Shown piece by piece: positions 1-34,328 of a stretch of 44,845 bases of DNA (position 1 is its first letter; each line of letters opens with the position of its first letter). The position numbers and the translations under genes are program-made. The DNA lies in the NCBI GenBank assembly GCA_016926795.1, contig JAFGNW010000230.1, forward strand, positions 1 through 44,845, given 5' to 3'. The DNA comes from Candidatus Zixiibacteriota bacterium (GTDB lineage Bacteria > Zixibacteria > MSB-5A5 > GN15 > FEB-12). The notes beneath the pieces are model-generated. The model saw only the letters and a list, made by a program, of their open reading frames with translations, ran no database searches and was not told the DNA's origin.

Positions 1-2315
1 ACCTTGGCGTCCGGATAGCGCAAGCTCGTTGGCGGAGCCGCGAGCGCATCCTGAGGATACAGCCAGTGCAGAACGGAATCTATCACAACCTGCATGGTTT
101 CATCTTTCAAACTGAGCGGCGTGAAGCAGAAGTGAACCGTCTTATACAGACCGGTATTGTACCTATGGGCGACCGGGGCGCCGTCGAAGGAATAGTCGAA
201 ACCGAGCGGGTGGTCCAGCCCATAATAGGATTTGTACAGGTACATACCCTCGGTGCCGTACACGCGCGAGGACCAGTTGACCTCCGGCAGAGCGTGCAGT
301 TCCGCCGGTTTGAAGATTCTCGGGTTAACATAAGACATCGGCAGGGTATCATTATAGGAGAAACCCTTGATCACCGGGCCGTCGGGGAACCAGTAATAAC
401 GCCGGTTCAGCTGGTTGGTGTCAATCTCCAAATCCGGCCATTTGCCGGGATTCAAGCTGATCGCACCGACAAAGTCCTCGATTCGACGGTGGGGTCGTTT
501 AATCGGATTGGGAATCCACTCGCCGTTAACATAAATGGAATCCGCTTCGAGGTCAAAAGAATGGTAACCCCAGCCGGAATAAACCATACCGTAAACCGGG
601 TCAACCCCGAAATGTTCGGCGTAATCATCGTCCGGTATGACCAGGTTGGCGCCAACTCTCGGACTGTCGTTAAAGCTGCCTATAATCGGGGCTCGCATAG
701 TCAGCCAGACGTTCACCCCCGCTTCAAGGGCGATATAAACATTCCTGCCAATCGCAGTCGGCTGACCGCCGGGTCCGGTGGTAATACCGGATTGGTTGAC
801 ATCGTCACTGTACAAAATCAGTATCTTGTGCTGCAGCATCCGCCGTAAAGCCACTTTATCACCGGCCTTACTGGAATAGATGTAGTCAACATACTGACCC
901 TTCTGATTCGGATCCAAATCCGGATACATAGGCGTTATATCGAAATCGGTAACGATGCCTTCATTGATGCTCCAGTTCGTGATAACGGAATCCCAATAAT
1001 GAACAGCGGTATCAATTTCGTACATGCCGTCGACACTTTTATAAGGTGCGTTGATACGCCCCCTCCCTATCTTGGAGAAGTCGATGACCAGGATATCCCG
1101 TTCGTATTTCGGTTGGATGACGTTGATTGCCTTATAATCCGGCGTCAGGTCAACCACCTGGGCGGCGTCCCGAGCTTGCACCCAGAAAATGAATTTCATG
1201 CCCCGGGTCGTATCTGCTGCCGGGTCCGATACCGTTGGATAAACATCATAAAGGGTGTCCCGAACCGAAGTTATCCAGCCGTCGGAAGTCTGGCGAAGCT
1301 TGTTAAAATTCGTGTCGGCAATAAAATCCGGGTCGGTTACATCAAAGAGCGTGTCGAACTGGCCGTATATACCCCACTGGCCGATACTGTCGGGATGGGG
1401 GGTGAAATCGTCAATATATATGGTCTGGGAATCGATTTCCACATAACAGGTATCCTCGATGGTATCGCATACGTACGAGGAATCGACCAGGATAAAGAAA
1501 GTATCGATTCCGTAATAATACAATTCCGCAGTACGGGTGACGAAAACAACTTTAACGAAGGAATCGATCAAATCCTCGTAAGGTCCGCCAGCGACGGTGT
1601 CCGATTTATAGGGACCGAACAGCTTCCACTGGAACTGGAAGAGAGTATCCTCGAGGTCCGGGTCCTCCCCTTCCCATCTTACCGGGATACCGGTGTTGAC
1701 ACCACCGGCCGTAACGGCATTGATATATTCCCGGGCAAGGTCGATGCCGATAATCCGGGTATCGGGAGGGTAGTCGTTTCTCAAAATGAGTTTAAAGACA
1801 ACCTCCGAGGACAGACCTTCATCATCGAAAGCCTGAAGGAAGACATATTGGGGCACAAATTCCAGAACCGGATTGGTCAGGCTGGCCGACATGGATACGA
1901 TTTGCGAGGTTTGCGGATCGTCGATAGTAACCGGTAAAAAGGTCCAGTTCAGCGTATCGCCGTCAAGAACAAACGAGGAATCGTTCGGGGACATCGCCCG
2001 CAGGAAATCGGCGAAACTAGCCGCTGACTCACCGGCGGCAGTATCAATATAGGCGGCTTTGACAACCACATAGCGGAACAGGGTAACCTGACCGTCATAG
2101 TCGGTGCCGACCCAATGAATAACATCGTTGAAAGATTCTTTATAACCGTCCGGCGGAATATTCACGAAATAAACCTGAGGTGGTCGGTTGGCGTTTTTGG
2201 TGCCGCTGATGCGATCGGAACAACTGGAGATATACAGGGAGGAGAAAACCAGTACCGCCAATATAAAAACCGTCAGAACCGCCGTTCGGCCGTGATATTT
2301 AGTTTTAAAAGTCAT
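1..2315 (-). CDS. Large secreted lipoprotein, 3' end beyond window
   Basis: The frame is open from an ATG at 2315 to the left edge, at least 771 residues, so the stop lies outside the window. The N-terminus has a basic start, a hydrophobic stretch and a Cys in LYISSCSD near residue 32, which fits a lipoprotein signal peptide. GGAG lies about 9 bases before the start. The mature part is rich in Asp, Tyr and Thr with Ig-like beta segments (RPPQVYFVNIPPDGY, then PPDTRIIGID). Further in are the phrases KYERDILVIDFSK and ALEAGVNVWLTM, which look like alpha/beta strands. It is the last visible gene of an operon with the PorV-like gene (21-base gap) and the TonB-dependent receptor. I recognise no specific family. 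Similar lipoproteins are common beside PorV-like genes in FCB bacteria, so an outer-surface role is inferred. Confidence 0.8.
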   Translation of the reverse strand, partial: MTFKTKYHGRTAVLTVFILAVLVFSSLYISSCSDRISGTKNANRPPQVYFVNIPPDGYKESFNDVIHWVGTDYDGQVTLFRYVVVKAAYIDTAAGESAASFADFLRAMSPNDSSFVLDGDTLNWTFLPVTIDDPQTSQIVSMSASLTNPVLEFVPQYVFLQAFDDEGLSSEVVFKLILRNDYPPDTRIIGIDLAREYINAVTAGGVNTGIPVRWEGEDPDLEDTLFQFQWKLFGPYKSDTVAGGPYEDLIDSFVKVVFVTRTAELYYYGIDTFFILVDSSYVCDTIEDTCYVEIDSQTIYIDDFTPHPDSIGQWGIYGQFDTLFDVTDPDFIADTNFNKLRQTSDGWITSVRDTLYDVYPTVSDPAADTTRGMKFIFWVQARDAAQVVDLTPDYKAINVIQPKYERDILVIDFSKIGRGRINAPYKSVDGMYEIDTAVHYWDSVITNWSINEGIVTDFDITPMYPDLDPNQKGQYVDYIYSSKAGDKVALRRMLQHKILILYSDDVNQSGITTGPGGQPTAIGRNVYIALEAGVNVWLTMRAPIIGSFNDSPRVGANLVIPDDDYAEHFGVDPVYGMVYSGWGYHSFDLEADSIYVNGEWIPNPIKRPHRRIEDFVGAISLNPGKWPDLEIDTNQLNRRYYWFPDGPVIKGFSYNDTLPMSYVNPRIFKPAELHALPEVNWSSRVYGTEGMYLYKSYYGLDHPLGFDYSFDGAPVAHRYNTGLYKTVHFCFTPLSLKDETMQVVIDSVLHWLYPQDALAAPPTSLRYPDAK

Positions 2316-2336
2316 TTGTTATTACTCCATTCCTCA

Positions 2337-3326
2337 TTAAAACGCAATTAACATGCTAAAGCGATGAACCTCGGTGAGAATACCGAAATCCTGGAAGGCG
2401 TAATCGAAACGAAGCTCGCCGTCTTCCCCGAACGGAAATCTCAAACCGCCGCCGGCCGTAAAGCCGTCCTCATCATAGTGCATCCGGGTACCGCTGCGAA
2501 GAATGAAACGGTCCTTGAAAACATATTCGACACCCATATTGTACTTTTCCAGGTTGTCGGAAGGGTGTGAACCTTCGATTGAGAAAGTCACGAAATTATC
2601 GGTTCGCTCCAGAATGTTGATGCAACCGCCGAACTTGAAGTTAATCGGCAACGGGTAATCGTTTTGAACCATGTTCAAATCGGGTCCGAAATTAGTAATC
2701 ACCATGGCGATTTTGAAGCCGCGGAAGCCGGTATCGTAGGACGTACCGATGTCGGCAGCCCAGCCGCTGGCCGATTCATCGGCGTAATACTCACCGATAT
2801 ACTTCACGTTGAAACCGATAGAGAATCGGTCCGTGAGATAACGGCCGTATCCAACCGAAAAAGCGATATCGTTGGCCTGAAACATCCGACCGGTACCGTC
2901 CGGTCCATCGCCGTAAGTTCTCTCAATCATATCGCCAGTGCTCAGGCCGTAAACGCCGAAACCGAGCACACCGCCGATCGACTCCAGAGGAAAACCAACG
3001 GCACCGAAACCGTAATTGATATCAGCCGGCATCTTGATGTAGGTAAACATAGCCTCCCGACCCAGCAGGGACGTCAACCCGGCCGGGTTGTAATACACGG
3101 CCGAAATATCATCGGATACGGCCGTGAAAGCGTCAGCCATCCCCATGGCTCGAGCTGATACCCCCAGTTCGAGAAATTGAGCACCGGTCGTTCCGACCTT
3201 AGCCTGAGCGTTGACCCGGGCAGGCAACACGGCCAGAACCAGGAACGACAGGCACAGCAGGCATAACAAGCCGGCGCCGGTATATTTCTTTCTGCGCGAC
3301 ACTGGAAGTCTTCTTTTCATTATCAT
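2337..3326 (-). CDS. PorV/PorQ-like outer-membrane beta-barrel protein
   Basis: A 329-residue protein with a long basic N-terminus, a hydrophobic signal segment ending near PARVNAQA, and the hallmark opening GAQFLELGVSARAMGMADA followed by YYNPAGL. That pattern is typical of the PorV/PorQ (UPF0164-like) family of FadL-related barrels, which in type IX secretion systems shuttle or anchor cargo at the outer membrane. The remainder alternates aromatic and polar residues as in beta-strands, and it ends in a terminal aromatic (MLIAF) as barrel proteins do. The start at 3326 has GAGG 5 bases upstream; an in-frame ATG at 3320 is an alternative. It sits 46 bases after the TonB-dependent receptor and 21 bases before the lipoprotein gene, so it is probably co-transcribed with both. 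A paralog lies at 43297-44310. Confidence 0.85.
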   Translation of the reverse strand: MIMKRRLPVSRRKKYTGAGLLCLLCLSFLVLAVLPARVNAQAKVGTTGAQFLELGVSARAMGMADAFTAVSDDISAVYYNPAGLTSLLGREAMFTYIKMPADINYGFGAVGFPLESIGGVLGFGVYGLSTGDMIERTYGDGPDGTGRMFQANDIAFSVGYGRYLTDRFSIGFNVKYIGEYYADESASGWAADIGTSYDTGFRGFKIAMVITNFGPDLNMVQNDYPLPINFKFGGCINILERTDNFVTFSIEGSHPSDNLEKYNMGVEYVFKDRFILRSGTRMHYDEDGFTAGGGLRFPFGEDGELRFDYAFQDFGILTEVHRFSMLIAF

Positions 3327-3372
3327 CTCAACCTCATTTATTTACAAATCAACTTTTTTCCTAATTCAAGGC

Positions 3373-6300
3373 TTACAGGTTAACTTCCAAACCTAACCTG
3401 ATCTGCCGGCCGTAATCCCAGTTGTAGGGATTAAGGTCATACTCGGTTCCGCCGTAAATGACCTGGGTGATGTTCTGTCGGGTATCGGGGCGTCCGGTGG
3501 CGGTATAAATATAGGTCACGTTCCGGGCGTCGAAGATATTCTCAACCCAGCAAATGAAGCTGTAATCGAGTCCGAAGAGCGAGAAATCCTTGGTGAAGCG
3601 AACATCGAAAACCGCCGTGGCCGGATACCGCAGGGAGTTGCGCTCGATCGATTCGGCCGTTTCCTGCTGAATATTGGGATAGCTCTTGTCCGGCGTAAAC
3701 GGTTGACCGCTCTCGATGACGGATTCGATCGAGAGAGACCAGCCGTTGGGAATCGGCAGGCCGAACAGCCGCGGCTTCACCGTATTCGGCACATAAATCT
3801 GAACGGCTGCCTTCAGTGAGTGCCGGATATCGTTATCCAGTGGCGCTTCGGACAGCGGCTCCCGCGACAGGTAGAAGTCACTCAGGTAATCTTCGTTGGT
3901 CTGGGAGGCCTTACCGTAAGCGAAGGCATAAGTGTAACTGACCTGGCCGTTGACATAACCGCCGCCGCGTTTTTCCAGAGTAAACTCGAAACCGCGGCTC
4001 CGACCATAGTCGGAGTTCTGATACTGCTGACGGGTCAGGCCGCCCACCTTCACCTGTTTGCTGTTGATCTTGTCAAACTCGTCTTTGAAATAACCCGAGA
4101 TGTCAATCGAGTAATATTCGCTCATGGCATACTTTACGCCGAAAGAGTACTGGATGGTTTTCTGGTAATCCAGGTTGTAGTTGCCGACAACATCGTTCTG
4201 GTCCACGGATGAAGTGTTACGCGCGTACATGTATAGGTATTCCGGGAGCTGGTAGAAATGGCCGTAGTTGAAATGGACTTTGGCCTTGTCCGATATCGGG
4301 TAGGAAAAACCTATACGCGGTGAAATTTTATGACGGTCACCGTAAATGATACCGGAACCGAGGTCGTCGTTACGCGCCACCTCGATAAGACTGTCGGTAT
4401 CCTGGATGAAGAAGTCCCAGCGGACACCCAGCGAAGCAATCATCGAACCGTATTCAAGTTTATCGCGGAAATATCCGGTCCCGGCCATCGGGCTGTAGTT
4501 AAACACGTCGCGGAAGGCGCCGCGGTCCGGGTAAGGACCGCCGTCATCACGACCGGTATAAAGAATGTAAACTCTTTCGATATCTTCAAAAGTAAAGCTT
4601 TCATGACGGAAAGCGAAACCGGCTTTCAGTTCGTGCGGACCGAGCTGGCGGAATATTTTCAGCTCCCCGCGGACCCTCTCGATCTCGCGCTGCGTCCAGG
4701 AAATATCTTCGGTATAGTTCCTGGGATCCAGGAAGTTATAGCTGCCACCGTAATCATATTTACCGTTGCCGTTGAGGTCGTCATAAGGTTCGCCCGGGTC
4801 GTACTGGTAATTGCGGCCGTCGAATATACCGTTGCCGTTGCGGTCGAGGAAAGGAATCCCCGGTTCCCACTGGCAACCTTCCGAACCCAGTTCGCAAGGT
4901 CCGTCATAGCGGCCGTTGTGATTGAGGTCATGATTCTCAATGCCGGTGCTCCGGATAAAGACATCGATACCCCGGTCATACAGACCGTTACCGTTGACGT
5001 CGGTGAACGGCTCGCCCAGAATAGAGTCCCCGTCGATATAAGGTTCCGGGCTGCGGTTATTGATGTTGGACACCAGATTCTGGTCGAGAACACCGTTGCC
5101 GTTCTTGTCATAAAGAATATCACCGGAGTCCCAAACACCGTTGCCGTTGATGTCGATAAACGGCTCACCTTCGAGACTGTCCTGATAACCGTTATTGTTG
5201 AAGCGGAATCCGGACCAGTTTATCGAACCGTCCGGGTTTGTATATTCGGTACCGCCCTGTATGTTTTCATCGAAAAGATATTCCCCGAAGGTGTACGCCG
5301 GCCCGTTCACATCCGTCCCGTAAATAGCCGAATCCGGGAACAGGTTGATAATCGGTTCCGGGGCGTCATAGACACCGTTGTCGTTCAGGTCCTGGAAACT
5401 TTCCCATTCGGTATCGAGGTTGAATTCATCGGGGTTCAGACCCTTGCCGGGATTGTTAGGATCACCGGGCTTCTGGGTATATTTAAAGGTATAATAGGAA
5501 AGCACCAGCTCATAGTTCATATCTTTTGAAATCGCCTGGGAAACCTCCAGTGAAAGAGATTTCCAATCCTCCTCGTATATCGGTGCCGTCGAAGATGAAT
5601 AACGATAGTTCCAGTCAAAAACCGTACCGTGCCGTTGAGAATTCTTGTAAGACAGAATGAACTTCAAATTCTGTTTGGGCCGGAACTTCAGGTTGGCCAT
5701 CCAGTAATACCGGTTGCGCAGGCGTTCCGGAATCTGGATACCGAAGAAATTAAAGAAACCGTAATTGTTCCGGGTTTCCGGAGTGTCGTAAGAATCATAC
5801 TGGTAATAACCGTCGTCCTTATCAACTTCAGCGTAGAAGTAATAAGTGAATTCCTTATCCTCCAGGAAATTAAGTCCCAGCGCCGGGAGAATTTTATTCT
5901 TGAAAATCGGGTCCGGACCGGAAAGAGAGAACCTCGTGAAATCATAGTTACGCGAATATTCGTTCAGGTCGGCATTTCCCAGGTCATCGGTAATATACTG
6001 GAAATTGATGCGGGTGTTATCTTTGGACCCGGTCTGGGTGGAGATTTTTACGATACCGCTAAGAGCGTCACCGTATTCGGGGTCGAAACCGTCTTTAATA
6101 ATCTGAATTTCCTGAATGGACCCCGATACCAGCGAAAGGTTCGCCCCCGTCTGGCCCATACCGCCGAGGGGGTCGCCGATCGGGACACCGTCGAGAATGT
6201 AGGATACCTCACCGGCCCGGCCGCCGCGGATAAATACTTCACCGGTTGAAGTGGTTTGAACACCAGCCACCTGCTCCAGCAGAGCATCCACCGTCTGTAC

Positions 6301-31567: not shown

Positions 31568-31678
31568 CAGACCGCCTAAACCTAAAGTGGAACACAAGAT
31601 ACTATTTGTCAGGAAGAATACAACAGAAAACAACGGGAAAAGTTTCCGGGGGATTTTTAGCGACCATCCACATTATCG

Positions 31679-31708
31679 TTGACAAATCCCGACTTTTTGA
31701 TTTATCAA
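31679..31708 (+). promoter_or_regulatory. Probable sigma70 promoter of the small lipoprotein gene
   Basis: TTGACA (31679-31684) followed after 18 bases by TATCAA (31703-31708). It lies in the gap between the divergent EamA and lipoprotein genes, about 45 bases before the start. Confidence 0.5.
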
Positions 31709-31753
31709 TATCAGGAATAACAGTAAATTCAATTTTATAGGCAGGGAAATATA

Positions 31754-32341
31754 ATGAGAAAAATAATTGCGTTATTACTGGCGGGGCTTTTGATAATTCC
31801 GTTTGGCTGCAGCGATGATGATGATGACGATACCAGCATCAAAGTAATCATGCCCCTCGCAGTCGGCAACCAGTGGTCCTATCGCAGCTTTGTTCAGGAC
31901 AGCCTGGGTGTCCAGAGGGACACCACTTTGTTGGATTTGACTATTTACAATGACACTGTTATTAACGACATCCACTGGTACATCACGACGGATGAGTACC
32001 CCTATAAAGTAAGCTCGCTGATCGCTCACCGGGACGATGGCCTGTGGGCTTACGGCCCGCCGCCTTATTTGATTATCAAGTACCCGGCTGAAATTTTCGA
32101 TACCTGGACTACCCCCGGCGGGGCGTATGAATACAAGCTGACCGCCAAAGGGGTGATACTAACCGTGCCGGCAGGGACTTTCTCCTGTTACAAGTACATA
32201 AGCCATGCCTCCGGCAGCGAAGATTCGACCCTGAATTATTATGCCCCCGGTTACGGCCTGATAAAAAGCCGCTTCTGGCTGGACGACGGCACCAAAGAAG
32301 AGCGCATCACCGAGCTTTACGACATGATATTGATACGGTAG
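31754..32341 (+). CDS. Small lipoprotein of unknown function
   Basis: 195 residues with a lipoprotein signal peptide: RKIIALLLAGLLIIPFGC, the acylated Cys at 19, followed by a run of six Asp after Ser20. An acidic stretch right after the Cys is compatible with retention or surface display, depending on the sorting rules of the organism. The body is beta-rich (PLAVGNQWSYRSF, YNDTVINDIHWYITTDE, VPAGTFSCYKYI) and ends YAPGYGLIKSRFW. Small lipoproteins of this pattern are common in FCB genomes, but I know no function. It stands alone with its own promoter and is divergent from the EamA pair. Confidence 0.8.
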   Translation: MRKIIALLLAGLLIIPFGCSDDDDDDTSIKVIMPLAVGNQWSYRSFVQDSLGVQRDTTLLDLTIYNDTVINDIHWYITTDEYPYKVSSLIAHRDDGLWAYGPPPYLIIKYPAEIFDTWTTPGGAYEYKLTAKGVILTVPAGTFSCYKYISHASGSEDSTLNYYAPGYGLIKSRFWLDDGTKEERITELYDMILIR

Positions 32342-32360
32342 ATTAATAAATAGTTTGCAG

Positions 32361-32383
32361 GTCGATACCCTTGCGGTTTCGAC
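32361..32383. repeat. REP-like hairpin, outlying copy
   Basis: GTCGATACC, loop CTTGC, GGTTTCGAC. It is the same hairpin family as the cluster at 33401-33563, with one T in place of A in the left arm. Confidence 0.6.
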
Positions 32384-32396
32384 AGTCGCAGTTTCA

Positions 32397-32512
32397 TAGA
32401 TTGGGTTCTGAGTCCGCAACAGCGGACGAAAAACCCGACAAGCTCATTTCATCTTAAAAAGCCTGATGTCGGGTTTCTCATTTCGCTGCGCTCAATCCGG
32501 AACCCCAATCTA
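32397..32512. mobile_element. MITE-like nested palindrome of 116 bases
   Basis: Outer ends TAGATTGGGTTC and GAACCCCAATCTA form an inverted repeat with one extra base. Inside are a perfect hairpin (GTCCGC, AACA, GCGGAC at 32412-32427) and a perfect 10-base inverted repeat (AAACCCGACA at 32431-32440, TGTCGGGTTT at 32467-32476). No coding capacity. The right end supplies the last codons and stop of the HEPN-like remnant, which suggests insertion into that gene. Only one copy is in the window, so mobility is inferred from structure alone. Confidence 0.5.
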
Positions 32513-33014
32513 ATTTACTTATCCGATAAAAAAGGCTTGGCAAGTCATCATCTATTTTAGATATATAAATATCAATTTCTTCATAGAATAAATCCCAAAA
32601 CGCATTATTATCTATATTATAATGAGCTAATTTAATAAATTCTAAATGGGTATTCGGAATATTATTATTCTCATTTATTATAAATTTAGAAAATCTATTT
32701 TTATCATCAGATAAAATCTTCAACGCAAACAGTTGAATCAAAATCAATCTTCTGACATATTCTCTCATTTGAGAATAACTAAGATTTCGTTTACCTGGCC
32801 AACGACTTATATTATCGAAAATAGTAGGTGATTCTTTTTTCCCGTGTGCTATAGTACATCTAATATCGTAAATATTATCTGCAAGGTTTTTTATATAATC
32901 CTGCTCTTCATTATTATTCGAGAGAAATTTAGATAATCGATTACAAAATTTTTGTGAAAGGCAGATGTCCTCATCTGCCCAATAAAAAGCCCCTTTGTAA
33001 AAAGGGGCTTTCAT
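32478..33014 (-). pseudogene. AT-rich remnant of a HEPN-like protein gene
   Basis: The frame codes about 178 residues from the ATG at 33014, but its first codons are the SRP RNA terminator (32982-33011), and its last codons and stop lie in the palindromic element ending at 32512. The authentic part seems to be ~32512-32960. It reads as a helical C-terminal domain with RCTIAHG, an R-x4-H motif as in HEPN ribonucleases, preceded by LADNIYDI; a similar YDIR...HG pattern occurs in ApeA-like HEPN defence proteins. Base composition is far more AT-rich than the surroundings, which points to transfer. There is no ribosome site. I judge it a truncated remnant, not a working gene, and the family call is tentative. 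Confidence 0.5.
32982..33011 (-). terminator. Rho-independent terminator of the SRP RNA
   Basis: On the minus strand AAAGCCCCTTT, loop TTAC, AAAGGGGCTTT form an 11-pair stem and continue into a T-rich tail (TTATT). It begins about 10 bases after the end of the SRP RNA. A second perfect hairpin (GGCAGATG, AGGA, CATCTGCC) follows immediately downstream. Confidence 0.85.
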
Positions 33015-33020
33015 TTTGTG

Positions 33021-33278
33021 CACCCACCTCCGAGCCGCGCTCAACCGGCGCTCCGGACAGCCGGCTCAGGCCGGGCTGACCCGCAACACACATCAGGAAC
33101 TCCTTACCGCTGCTACCTTCCGGTCCTGACGGGATTCGGAGGCTGATGTTGTACGGGACCCAACCCTCAACACCGCTTATCCGTCGCCACCGGACGGCTA
33201 CCGCACCCTCGGGTGGGAATTCGACCCCGGTATAGCGGATTCCGGGTTACAGGGCACCGCTAGCTCCCCGTCTAGCAC
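33021..33278 (-). ncRNA. ffs: Signal recognition particle RNA, large bacterial type
   Basis: The minus strand carries the conserved apical loop of SRP RNA, GTCAGGACCGGAAGGTAGCA (asymmetric bulge and GGAA-type tetraloop that bind Ffh). Flanking arms (ACAACATCAG and CTGATGTGTGTTG) form the long central helix. The 5' part, from GTGCTAGACGGGGAGCTAGC to GGGGTCGAATTCCC, matches the Alu-domain block of large-type bacterial SRP RNAs. The 5' GTGC and 3' GTGCAC mark the approximate ends, giving about 258 bases. SRP RNA with Ffh targets membrane and secreted proteins to the translocon. It lies 33 bases after tRNA-Ala and ends at a strong terminator, so both are probably one transcript. Ends are good to about 10 bases. 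Confidence 0.88.
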
Positions 33279-33311
33279 TCAAACCTTGACGGTTTGTACC
33301 TAAATTTATAA

Positions 33312-33384
33312 TGGAGCAGATCGGGATCGAACCGACGACCTCCACGTTGCGAACGTGGCGCTCTCCCAACTGAGCTACTGCCCC
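33312..33384 (-). tRNA. tRNA-Ala (anticodon CGC)
   Basis: 73 bases on the minus strand. Acceptor GGGGCAG pairs with CTGCTCC, followed by discriminator A; D arm GCTC/GAGC; anticodon stem CCACG/CGTGG with loop TTCGCAA, anticodon CGC; T arm with TTCGATC. All stems pair (one G-U in the T stem). CCA is not encoded. It reads GCG codons. Confidence 0.95.
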
Positions 33385-33400
33385 AAACTTTAATTTACCT

Positions 33401-33563
33401 GTAGGTCGAAACCCTTGCGGTTTCGATGTTTTAACAACTGTCGAAACTCTACGAGATTTCGACCTACAAATATTTAACTTGTCGAAACCATAAAGGTTTC
33501 GACCTACAAAAATTAAAACCTACAAAAATTAAAACCGTCAAAAGCACATGGCTTTTGACCTAC
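33401..33563. repeat. Cluster of four REP-like hairpins
   Basis: Four hairpins at about 33401-33426, 33440-33467, 33481-33507 and 33537-33563. The common form is GTCGAAACC, a 5-base loop, GGTTTCGAC, then CTAC. Copy four reads GTCAAAAGC/GCTTTTGAC: both arms changed together, so pairing is kept. Between copies are short AATTAAAACCTACAAA direct repeats. A fifth copy is at 32361. They lie in the 249-base gap between tRNA-Ala and the small barrel gene; no gene is present. Confidence 0.75.
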
Positions 33564-33633
33564 TAAAATCAAGCTACAGGTTTATAGGATAATAAATAAT
33601 TTCCCGAAGGCAACTGATTTTTAAGACAGGCTC

Positions 33634-34212
33634 TTAATTCAAAAACATGATCCCCACCCGGACCTGCAGGAACGGGCCCAAAGTGATGTCGTATTCTTCG
33701 TTAAAGCACTTCGGCGCCCCCCAGATTGCCGCCTCCCCGAAAAAAATATATTTGCTCTCGGTAAAAAAGACCATCTCGAACGAGCCTTTCAAAGTCAGAT
33801 ACTGCGTCCGTTTCAAATCGCCGATATGCCCCAGGTCAGCCAGGCCTATGGCTATCCCGGGCTTATAGGCAATTTTTGCCCTTTTCCGATAATAAACCGG
33901 TTTCAAACCCAGGCTCAGGTTGACCATCGCCTCCCGTTCCTCGAAAAACTGGATATCCTGGAAATCAATCATGACCCCCCAGAAGAGATAGTCGCTGACG
34001 ACAAAATCAAAATAGAAGCCGCCGGAAATCCCCACCCGGGTCTCGTATTTCTCCCCGTTCACCCGGGCTGAACCCAGATTGTTTATACCCAGCTTCATGC
34101 CGAAATGGGTCTGGTGCCATTGAAATTTCTTTTTGACCAGGTTGCCCGAGGCGTTGGCAGCCAGGGGTAAAAACAGGATAATAACGATTATCCATTTAAA
34201 TCGATTGTTCAT
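33634..34212 (-). CDS. Small outer-membrane beta-barrel protein, unknown function
   Basis: 192 residues from the ATG at 34212, with GGGAG about 4-5 bases upstream; the TTG at 34230 is not needed. A signal peptide (FKWIIVIILFLPLAANAS) is followed by alternating aromatic/polar strands (THFGMKLGINNLGSARV, GGFYFDFVVSDYLFWGVMID) and ends LQVRVGIMFLN, as outer-membrane barrels do. About eight strands are likely, in the size range of OmpA/OmpW-like small barrels, but no family motif is visible. It is divergent from dnaX. Confidence 0.7.
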   Translation of the reverse strand: MNNRFKWIIVIILFLPLAANASGNLVKKKFQWHQTHFGMKLGINNLGSARVNGEKYETRVGISGGFYFDFVVSDYLFWGVMIDFQDIQFFEEREAMVNLSLGLKPVYYRKRAKIAYKPGIAIGLADLGHIGDLKRTQYLTLKGSFEMVFFTESKYIFFGEAAIWGAPKCFNEEYDITLGPFLQVRVGIMFLN

Positions 34213-34298
34213 TAACTCCCGTTCTTTCAATAAAACCGAGCGCAGTTTAAATATAAGCCGGATGTCGAAAAATAACGCATAAAAAAACCTCTATAATA

Positions 34299-34328
34299 TT
34301 GACGCAGGCGAAGCGTAAGTGTGATAAT
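34299..34328 (+). promoter_or_regulatory. Possible sigma70 promoter of the dnaX operon
   Basis: TTGACG (34299-34304), 18 bases, GATAAT (34323-34328), about 64 bases before the dnaX start and in the only gap available for the operon promoter. Confidence 0.5.

Follow-up and report, generated by a model that had tools for sequence, protein, structure and literature searches.

We found an AT-rich piece of a gene, with a repeat at each cut end, between a lipoprotein-like gene and the SRP RNA gene of a Candidatus Zixiibacteriota bacterium (contig JAFGNW010000230.1; the window, meaning the whole stretch of DNA that was analysed, is 44,845 nucleotides long). The piece is probably what remains of a horizontally acquired gene, dead, truncated at the N-terminus and trapped among repeats, and the product of that gene was probably of the HEPN type. 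No match to it was found in the relatives searched, and the same interval holds different DNA in a sister species. The features of the locus are collected in Table 1; other neighbours in the window, read by eye from the list of open reading frames, include dnaX and recR.

Table 1. Features of the locus, in window coordinates (G000, this genome; G001, sister species; P0001, the frame's protein)
Feature	Position	Strand	Basis or remark
Lipoprotein-like gene, left-hand conserved neighbour	31754..32341	+	ORF; G001 protein 76% identical
Dispersed palindromic element, 116 nt, TAGATTGGGTTC...GGAACCCCAATCTA	32397..32512	+	G000/G001 matches, three-copy alignment, fold
Open frame, 188 aa from TTG	32478-33044	-	Listed open reading frame
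Stop codon of the frame, within the palindromic element	32478-32480	-	ORF list, copy alignment
AT-rich gene fragment, HEPN-like C-terminal part, ~147 codons	32513-32953	-	Sequence, ORF, profile match
R-x4-H motif, RCTIAH	32844-32861	-	Residues 40-45 of P0001
REP-like element GTGAAAGGCAGATGTCCTCATCTGCC, 5' edge of the fragment	32954..32979	+	Hairpin copies and GTG side
Terminator-like hairpin behind the SRP RNA	32990..33006	-	Encodes part of the frame's N-terminus
Bacterial large SRP RNA	33016..33280	-	Rfam RF01854, 181.4 bits
tRNA-Ala (CGC)	33311..33385	-	ARAGORN; Rfam RF00005 at 33312-33384

Results

A gene fragment bounded by dispersed elements

The first-pass annotation had described the frame at 32478-33014 on the minus strand, which is the listed frame counted from its first ATG (33014), as far more AT-rich than its neighbours. 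We found that 32513-32953 has a GC content of 25.6%, where the window as a whole averages 50.4%, and that the lowest-GC 441-base stretch of the whole window (step 10 bases) falls here, the lowest non-overlapping stretch having 31.3%; the claim is thus confirmed. There are 148 open codons in 32514-32959, a segment that takes in six bases of the REP-like element, and the longest run among 5000 dinucleotide shuffles of this segment, in any of the six frames, was 123. The remaining five frames of the AT-rich part have 7 to 28 stops, and its GC content by codon position is 32%, 26% and 19% for positions 1, 2 and 3. We take the AT-rich middle as coding sequence, former or present. The frame contains no internal stop or frameshift, which counts against a long-dead gene, and the fragment may be recent.

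The frame begins and ends in DNA of another kind. Ahead of the motif, its only in-frame ATG, GTG or TTG codons are ATG 33014, GTG 33023 and TTG 33044, all in the SRP RNA/terminator region, and its last codons and stop are provided by the 116-nt palindrome. A REP-like element, absent from the first-pass annotation, separates the fragment from the SRP RNA terminator. Since the flanks of the frame are dispersed elements on both sides, the DNA of the old gene within it is limited to 441 bp. These results bear out the earlier description of a remnant whose two ends are unrelated DNA, with the SRP terminator and the REP-like element at the 5' side and the dispersed palindrome, holding the stop codon, at the 3' side.

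Matches to the palindrome occur at three other places in this genome and at six in the sister, mostly as partial copies. In a three-copy alignment the arms and the centre are common, and the common part includes the frame's stop codon. The DNA fold of 32385-32525 gave z = -4.88. Both outer arms of the window copy depart from the common form in matching ways, GTAGGTCGGG having become ATAGATTGGG in one and the mirror of this in the other, apart from one extra base, so that the pairing of the palindrome is kept. Around the tRNA and lipoprotein genes, at 33400-33572 and 32356-32383, there are more palindromic repeats, which have the form GTCGAAACC...GGTTTCGAC.

A GTG-tagged REP-like family

The element at the 5' edge has the consensus GTGNNNGGCAGATGTCCWCATCTGCC. 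Its hairpin, GGCAGATGNNNNCATCTGCC, occurs in 30 copies in this genome and in 4 in the sister, and a reversed control pattern gave 0. In all 33 distinct copies (all 30 of this genome and three of the sister's four, its remaining copy being dropped because the immediate context duplicated another) there is a GTG at a distance of three bases on one side of the hairpin and never on both; the element is thus asymmetric in the manner of a REP. Most copies have TCCA or TCCT as the loop, with few exceptions. Of 61 genomes searched, 26, this one included, contain the pattern with a TCCN loop (reversed control, 0 hits); its occurrence is patchy and extends to all four sampled families of the order.

According to the portions of one study that treat REPs and their partners, Y1 transposases are the type that accompanies REPs, and two REP super-families are tagged GTAG or CGTC, with GTGG mentioned for one family (PMC3733652). 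The element resembles that system in that it is a short hairpin, dispersed in the genome and tagged on one side by unpaired bases, and in that the genome has Y1 genes, but differs from what those portions describe in its tag, GTGNNN, which is neither GTAG nor CGTC (PMC3733652). We found 7 Y1 transposase matches in this genome and 6 in the sister. Of the seven, two have a REP-like copy within 600 bp (expected 0.011 per gene; binomial P 0.0024); the coordinates were already known when this limit was picked, which makes the P value flattering, and the other five lie beyond it. One Y1 (PF01797) gene, G000:C187:70-557, has a copy 127 bp away, and another, G000:C30:2588-4635, has copies 544 and 1153 bp away. 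The Y1 genes on C30 and C187 and their nearby copies are possible REPtron units.

Evidence for a probable HEPN kinship

The frame had been proposed to be of the HEPN type on account of an R-x4-H motif, and we found the motif, RCTIAH, in the AT-rich part. The evidence beyond it comes mainly from PADLOC. DzbB (PDLC03836), presumably, to judge by its name, a protein of the Dazbog defence system, matched residues 11-59 of P0001 (E 5.7e-6, 24 bits) and was the sole PADLOC profile matched; the longer frame gave E 6.9e-6. Dazbog includes a DUF262 protein, as the relevant part of its description states (PMC10952713). The match takes in profile positions 271-316 of 341, that is 46, over the R-x4-H stretch. 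It differs from a full-length match in that the profile has 25 positions past its end and the fragment about 100 residues, and in that the fragment is without the N-terminal part of the profile. Given that the match begins at DzbB position 271, a full-length relative would have about 260 residues before this point.

Nine controls (eight shuffles and one reversal) gave one PADLOC match, CARF_HEPN at E 0.0012. PADLOC E-values are thus somewhat optimistic at this composition, and the real DzbB match beats the best control by a factor of about 200. Neither Pfam nor NCBIfam profiles matched the frame, with 0 families of any kind. The earlier HEPN proposal, and the profile search that it looked to, therefore stand in part: the motif and a partial PADLOC match are there, and the Pfam and NCBIfam matches are not.

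Sections of the survey of the HEPN superfamily place R-x4-6-H at the end of helix 3, describe a polar N, D or H after the Arg as usual, typical rather than obligatory, and report that many families have an acidic residue in helix 2 (Ex3[KR]) (PMC3710099). The fragment is like these proteins in that its R-x4-H ends a predicted helix, after which come a loop and a long helix (PMC3710099, in the part on the fold). It differs from them in several respects: Cys takes the place of N, D or H after the motif Arg; the first helix appears to be absent; there is no Pfam match; and the helix-2 acidic residue is missing. The remaining helix-2 stretch, SQKFCNRLSKFLSNNN, contains no acidic residue, and the DED that precedes it is encoded by the REP-like element. 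The gene is cut at helix 2, so the parent may have had an acidic residue there.

Two AlphaFold models of the fragment are all-helical, with low confidence (mean pLDDT 47.4 and 57.2). At that confidence, the predicted helices 23-45, with the motif at 40-45, and 68-90 would fit HEPN helices 3 and 4. Foldseek searches with both models gave no hit that reached E 0.001, the best being E 3.1 and 3.6. In VIA-align the top four rows were HEPN/HepT toxins, whose Z scores of 4.0-4.3 fall short of the level that is meaningful for helical bundles. In the best row, model residues 24-156 span residues 4-127 of the toxin chain, going by end points only, which would apparently put the motif near the toxin start and far from toxin residue 102. 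The range is apparently out of register with the motif and the Z is low, so we gave this match no weight.

Scans for the pattern Y-x-I-R-x4-HG returned 0, 3 and 3 loci. Four of the six have frames of 307-320 codons with the motif Arg near residue 256-267, and two of these four were scanned for MauJ (PF17419), one lying over the cut-off and another under it. The full-length parent of the fragment probably had some 250 more N-terminal residues. The MauJ protein of one locus (L070) and the fragment have YDIRxxIAHGK in common, but the fragment itself does not match PF17419. The L070 protein likewise matches DzbB at the motif (E 0.00051), which indicates that the fragment's DzbB match leans on the motif; our confidence in the overall reading was lowered very slightly for this reason. 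The other two loci, L071 and L072, have 52-codon frames that look like chance. BLAST similarity between P0001 and the six pattern-derived frames is confined to 17-24 residues, and none of the six was accepted as a relative beyond the motif. We regard HEPN kinship as likely, though not proven.

Relatives and the corresponding interval in a sister species

The gene had been suggested for a search of related genomes, where conservation of the whole frame would have spoken against a remnant. Among 132 genomes of the phylum, including its own, the fragment matched 0 of the other 131 at E 0.001, and no conserved frame was found, which leaves the remnant reading in place. At E 0.01, among 98 genomes, there were two matches besides the window, L003 (E 0.003), inside a lon-like gene, and L004 (E 0.009), with two stops; both were judged chance. 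Profile searches over the phylum gave no intact gene: DzbB matched 1 of 129, the window itself, and MauJ 1 of 128, G065, weakly and under the cut-off. The assembly (88.5% complete) yielded no second copy, only the window itself, at E <=10.

Searches of other collections were likewise without a relative. These were tblastn against plasmids and against phages, PDB sequences, IMG/VR (queries P0001 and alignment A1) and a collection of 84,980 species genomes (query P0001); the last two scans depend on exact identity over a short peptide and pick up only close relatives. PHROGs gave no accepted match (best 0.054).

The sister species (G001, contig C131, locus L047) keeps the tRNA-Ala/SRP pair and the lipoprotein gene, and the DNA between them differs. 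The lipoprotein side (31807-32341) aligns at 80% identity and the SRP/tRNA side (32984-33472) at 88%, whereas the intervals, 642 bp here and 1434 bp in the sister (2260-3693), do not align. Where the window has ATG 33014, the sister has ATA. The sister interval contains a 283-aa frame of 36% GC directly behind the lipoprotein gene (L047:2265-3116), which has no Pfam match, and it carries other palindromes.

We also searched the downstream side of the SRP RNA at the loci of 29 relatives, drawn from the 51 other genomes that gave an SRP match; the stretches were 299 to 1501 bp long (one just 299 bp) and contained no relative of P0001 (best E 2.1). AT-rich stretches also occur there in genomes that are themselves AT-rich near the locus (for example L030, L013 and L009). 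Composition alone says little between genomes; within the window that of the fragment is exceptional.

The SRP RNA/tRNA locus as a proposed landing site

The first-pass annotation had placed the fragment at a landing site for transferred genes beside the SRP RNA and tRNA. This gained no support: the fragment sits on the downstream side of the SRP terminator, its junctions are repeats, and a repeat search (at least 14 bases) of 31600-34300 found no second copy of the tRNA or SRP RNA 3' end. Integration with either gene as attachment site was rejected on that search. The tRNA and SRP RNA are intact and syntenic, the tRNA-Ala lying inside the fetched stretch at 26 of the 29 relatives' loci. A 19-nt pair (84%; 32256-32274 and 32977-32995) brackets the fragment, with one side inside the lipoprotein gene. 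We take it as chance; the tRNA and SRP RNA genes are not part of the pair.

Discussion

On the reading that we favour, a gene of foreign composition would have arrived in the genome and lost its ends where palindromic elements insert and recombine, the flanks having presumably been removed by insertion of repeats or by recombination at them. With the flanks would have gone the larger N-terminal part and, we infer, the first HEPN helix. The product would likely have been a metal-independent RNase with its R-x4-H active site near the C-terminus. What may be left of the gene lies in the variable interval from the lipoprotein gene to the SRP RNA, with the REP-like element on its 5' side and the 116-nt palindrome on its 3' side. 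As seen from one genome, the REP-like element may have cut the gene, or it may have landed at an old break. Neither a donor gene and its architecture nor a HEPN subfamily was identified by the sequence searches run here.

It is possible, but rather unlikely, that the fragment is what remains of a non-HEPN protein, helical and AT-rich, whose R-x4-H is accidental. The empty Pfam and NCBIfam results would suit such a protein, as would Foldseek's lack of a hit at its threshold and the HEPN-labelled profile drawn by one of the nine controls; the margin of the DzbB match over that control argues against it, as does the position of the motif at a predicted helix end, before a loop and a long helix, as in HEPN helices 3 and 4 in the pages of the survey on that fold (PMC3710099). 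That the locus instead holds a living short HEPN-type protein, translated from ATG 33014 through read-through of the SRP RNA terminator, seems very improbable. The frame is intact from this codon, and GGAGG stands 12 nt ahead of it, inside the SRP RNA end. However, the start lies at the terminator and is ATA in the sister, promoter-like sites across 32340-33420 were not above chance (2 found, 2.4 expected), the putative first helix and the acidic helix-2 position are missing, repeats make up both ends, and no relative was found to show conservation. A minimal HEPN-type protein that fuses the SRP RNA end and terminator, the REP-like element and a HEPN tail, and is made only on terminator read-through, has a smaller chance still; if true, it would be a new chimeric gene being born.

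We think it equally improbable as a living short protein that the fragment is cargo of a mobile element integrating at the tRNA-Ala/SRP locus. The two RNA genes do adjoin it, and the content of the interval differs between two species of the genus, but the lack of a 3'-end duplicate among repeats of at least 14 bases, the intact and syntenic RNA genes and the empty search downstream of the SRP RNA in the 29 loci all speak against such an origin.

A decayed, horizontally acquired gene thus remains the reading that we consider probable. The frame, its composition, the two repeats, the empty search of the relatives covered and the different content of the sister interval are direct observations; we infer the HEPN identity of the gene, its horizontal origin, its loss of function and the loss of its flanks through repeats. 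The fragment is real, most likely dead and fairly ordinary, and most likely has no present function. The GTG-tagged REP-like family is the more useful by-product of the analysis. The locus itself, where a single piece of a gene has a repeat at either cut end and the interval around it varies from one sister species to the other, would be a clean example of a foreign, probably defence-type gene decaying in a palindrome-rich genome.
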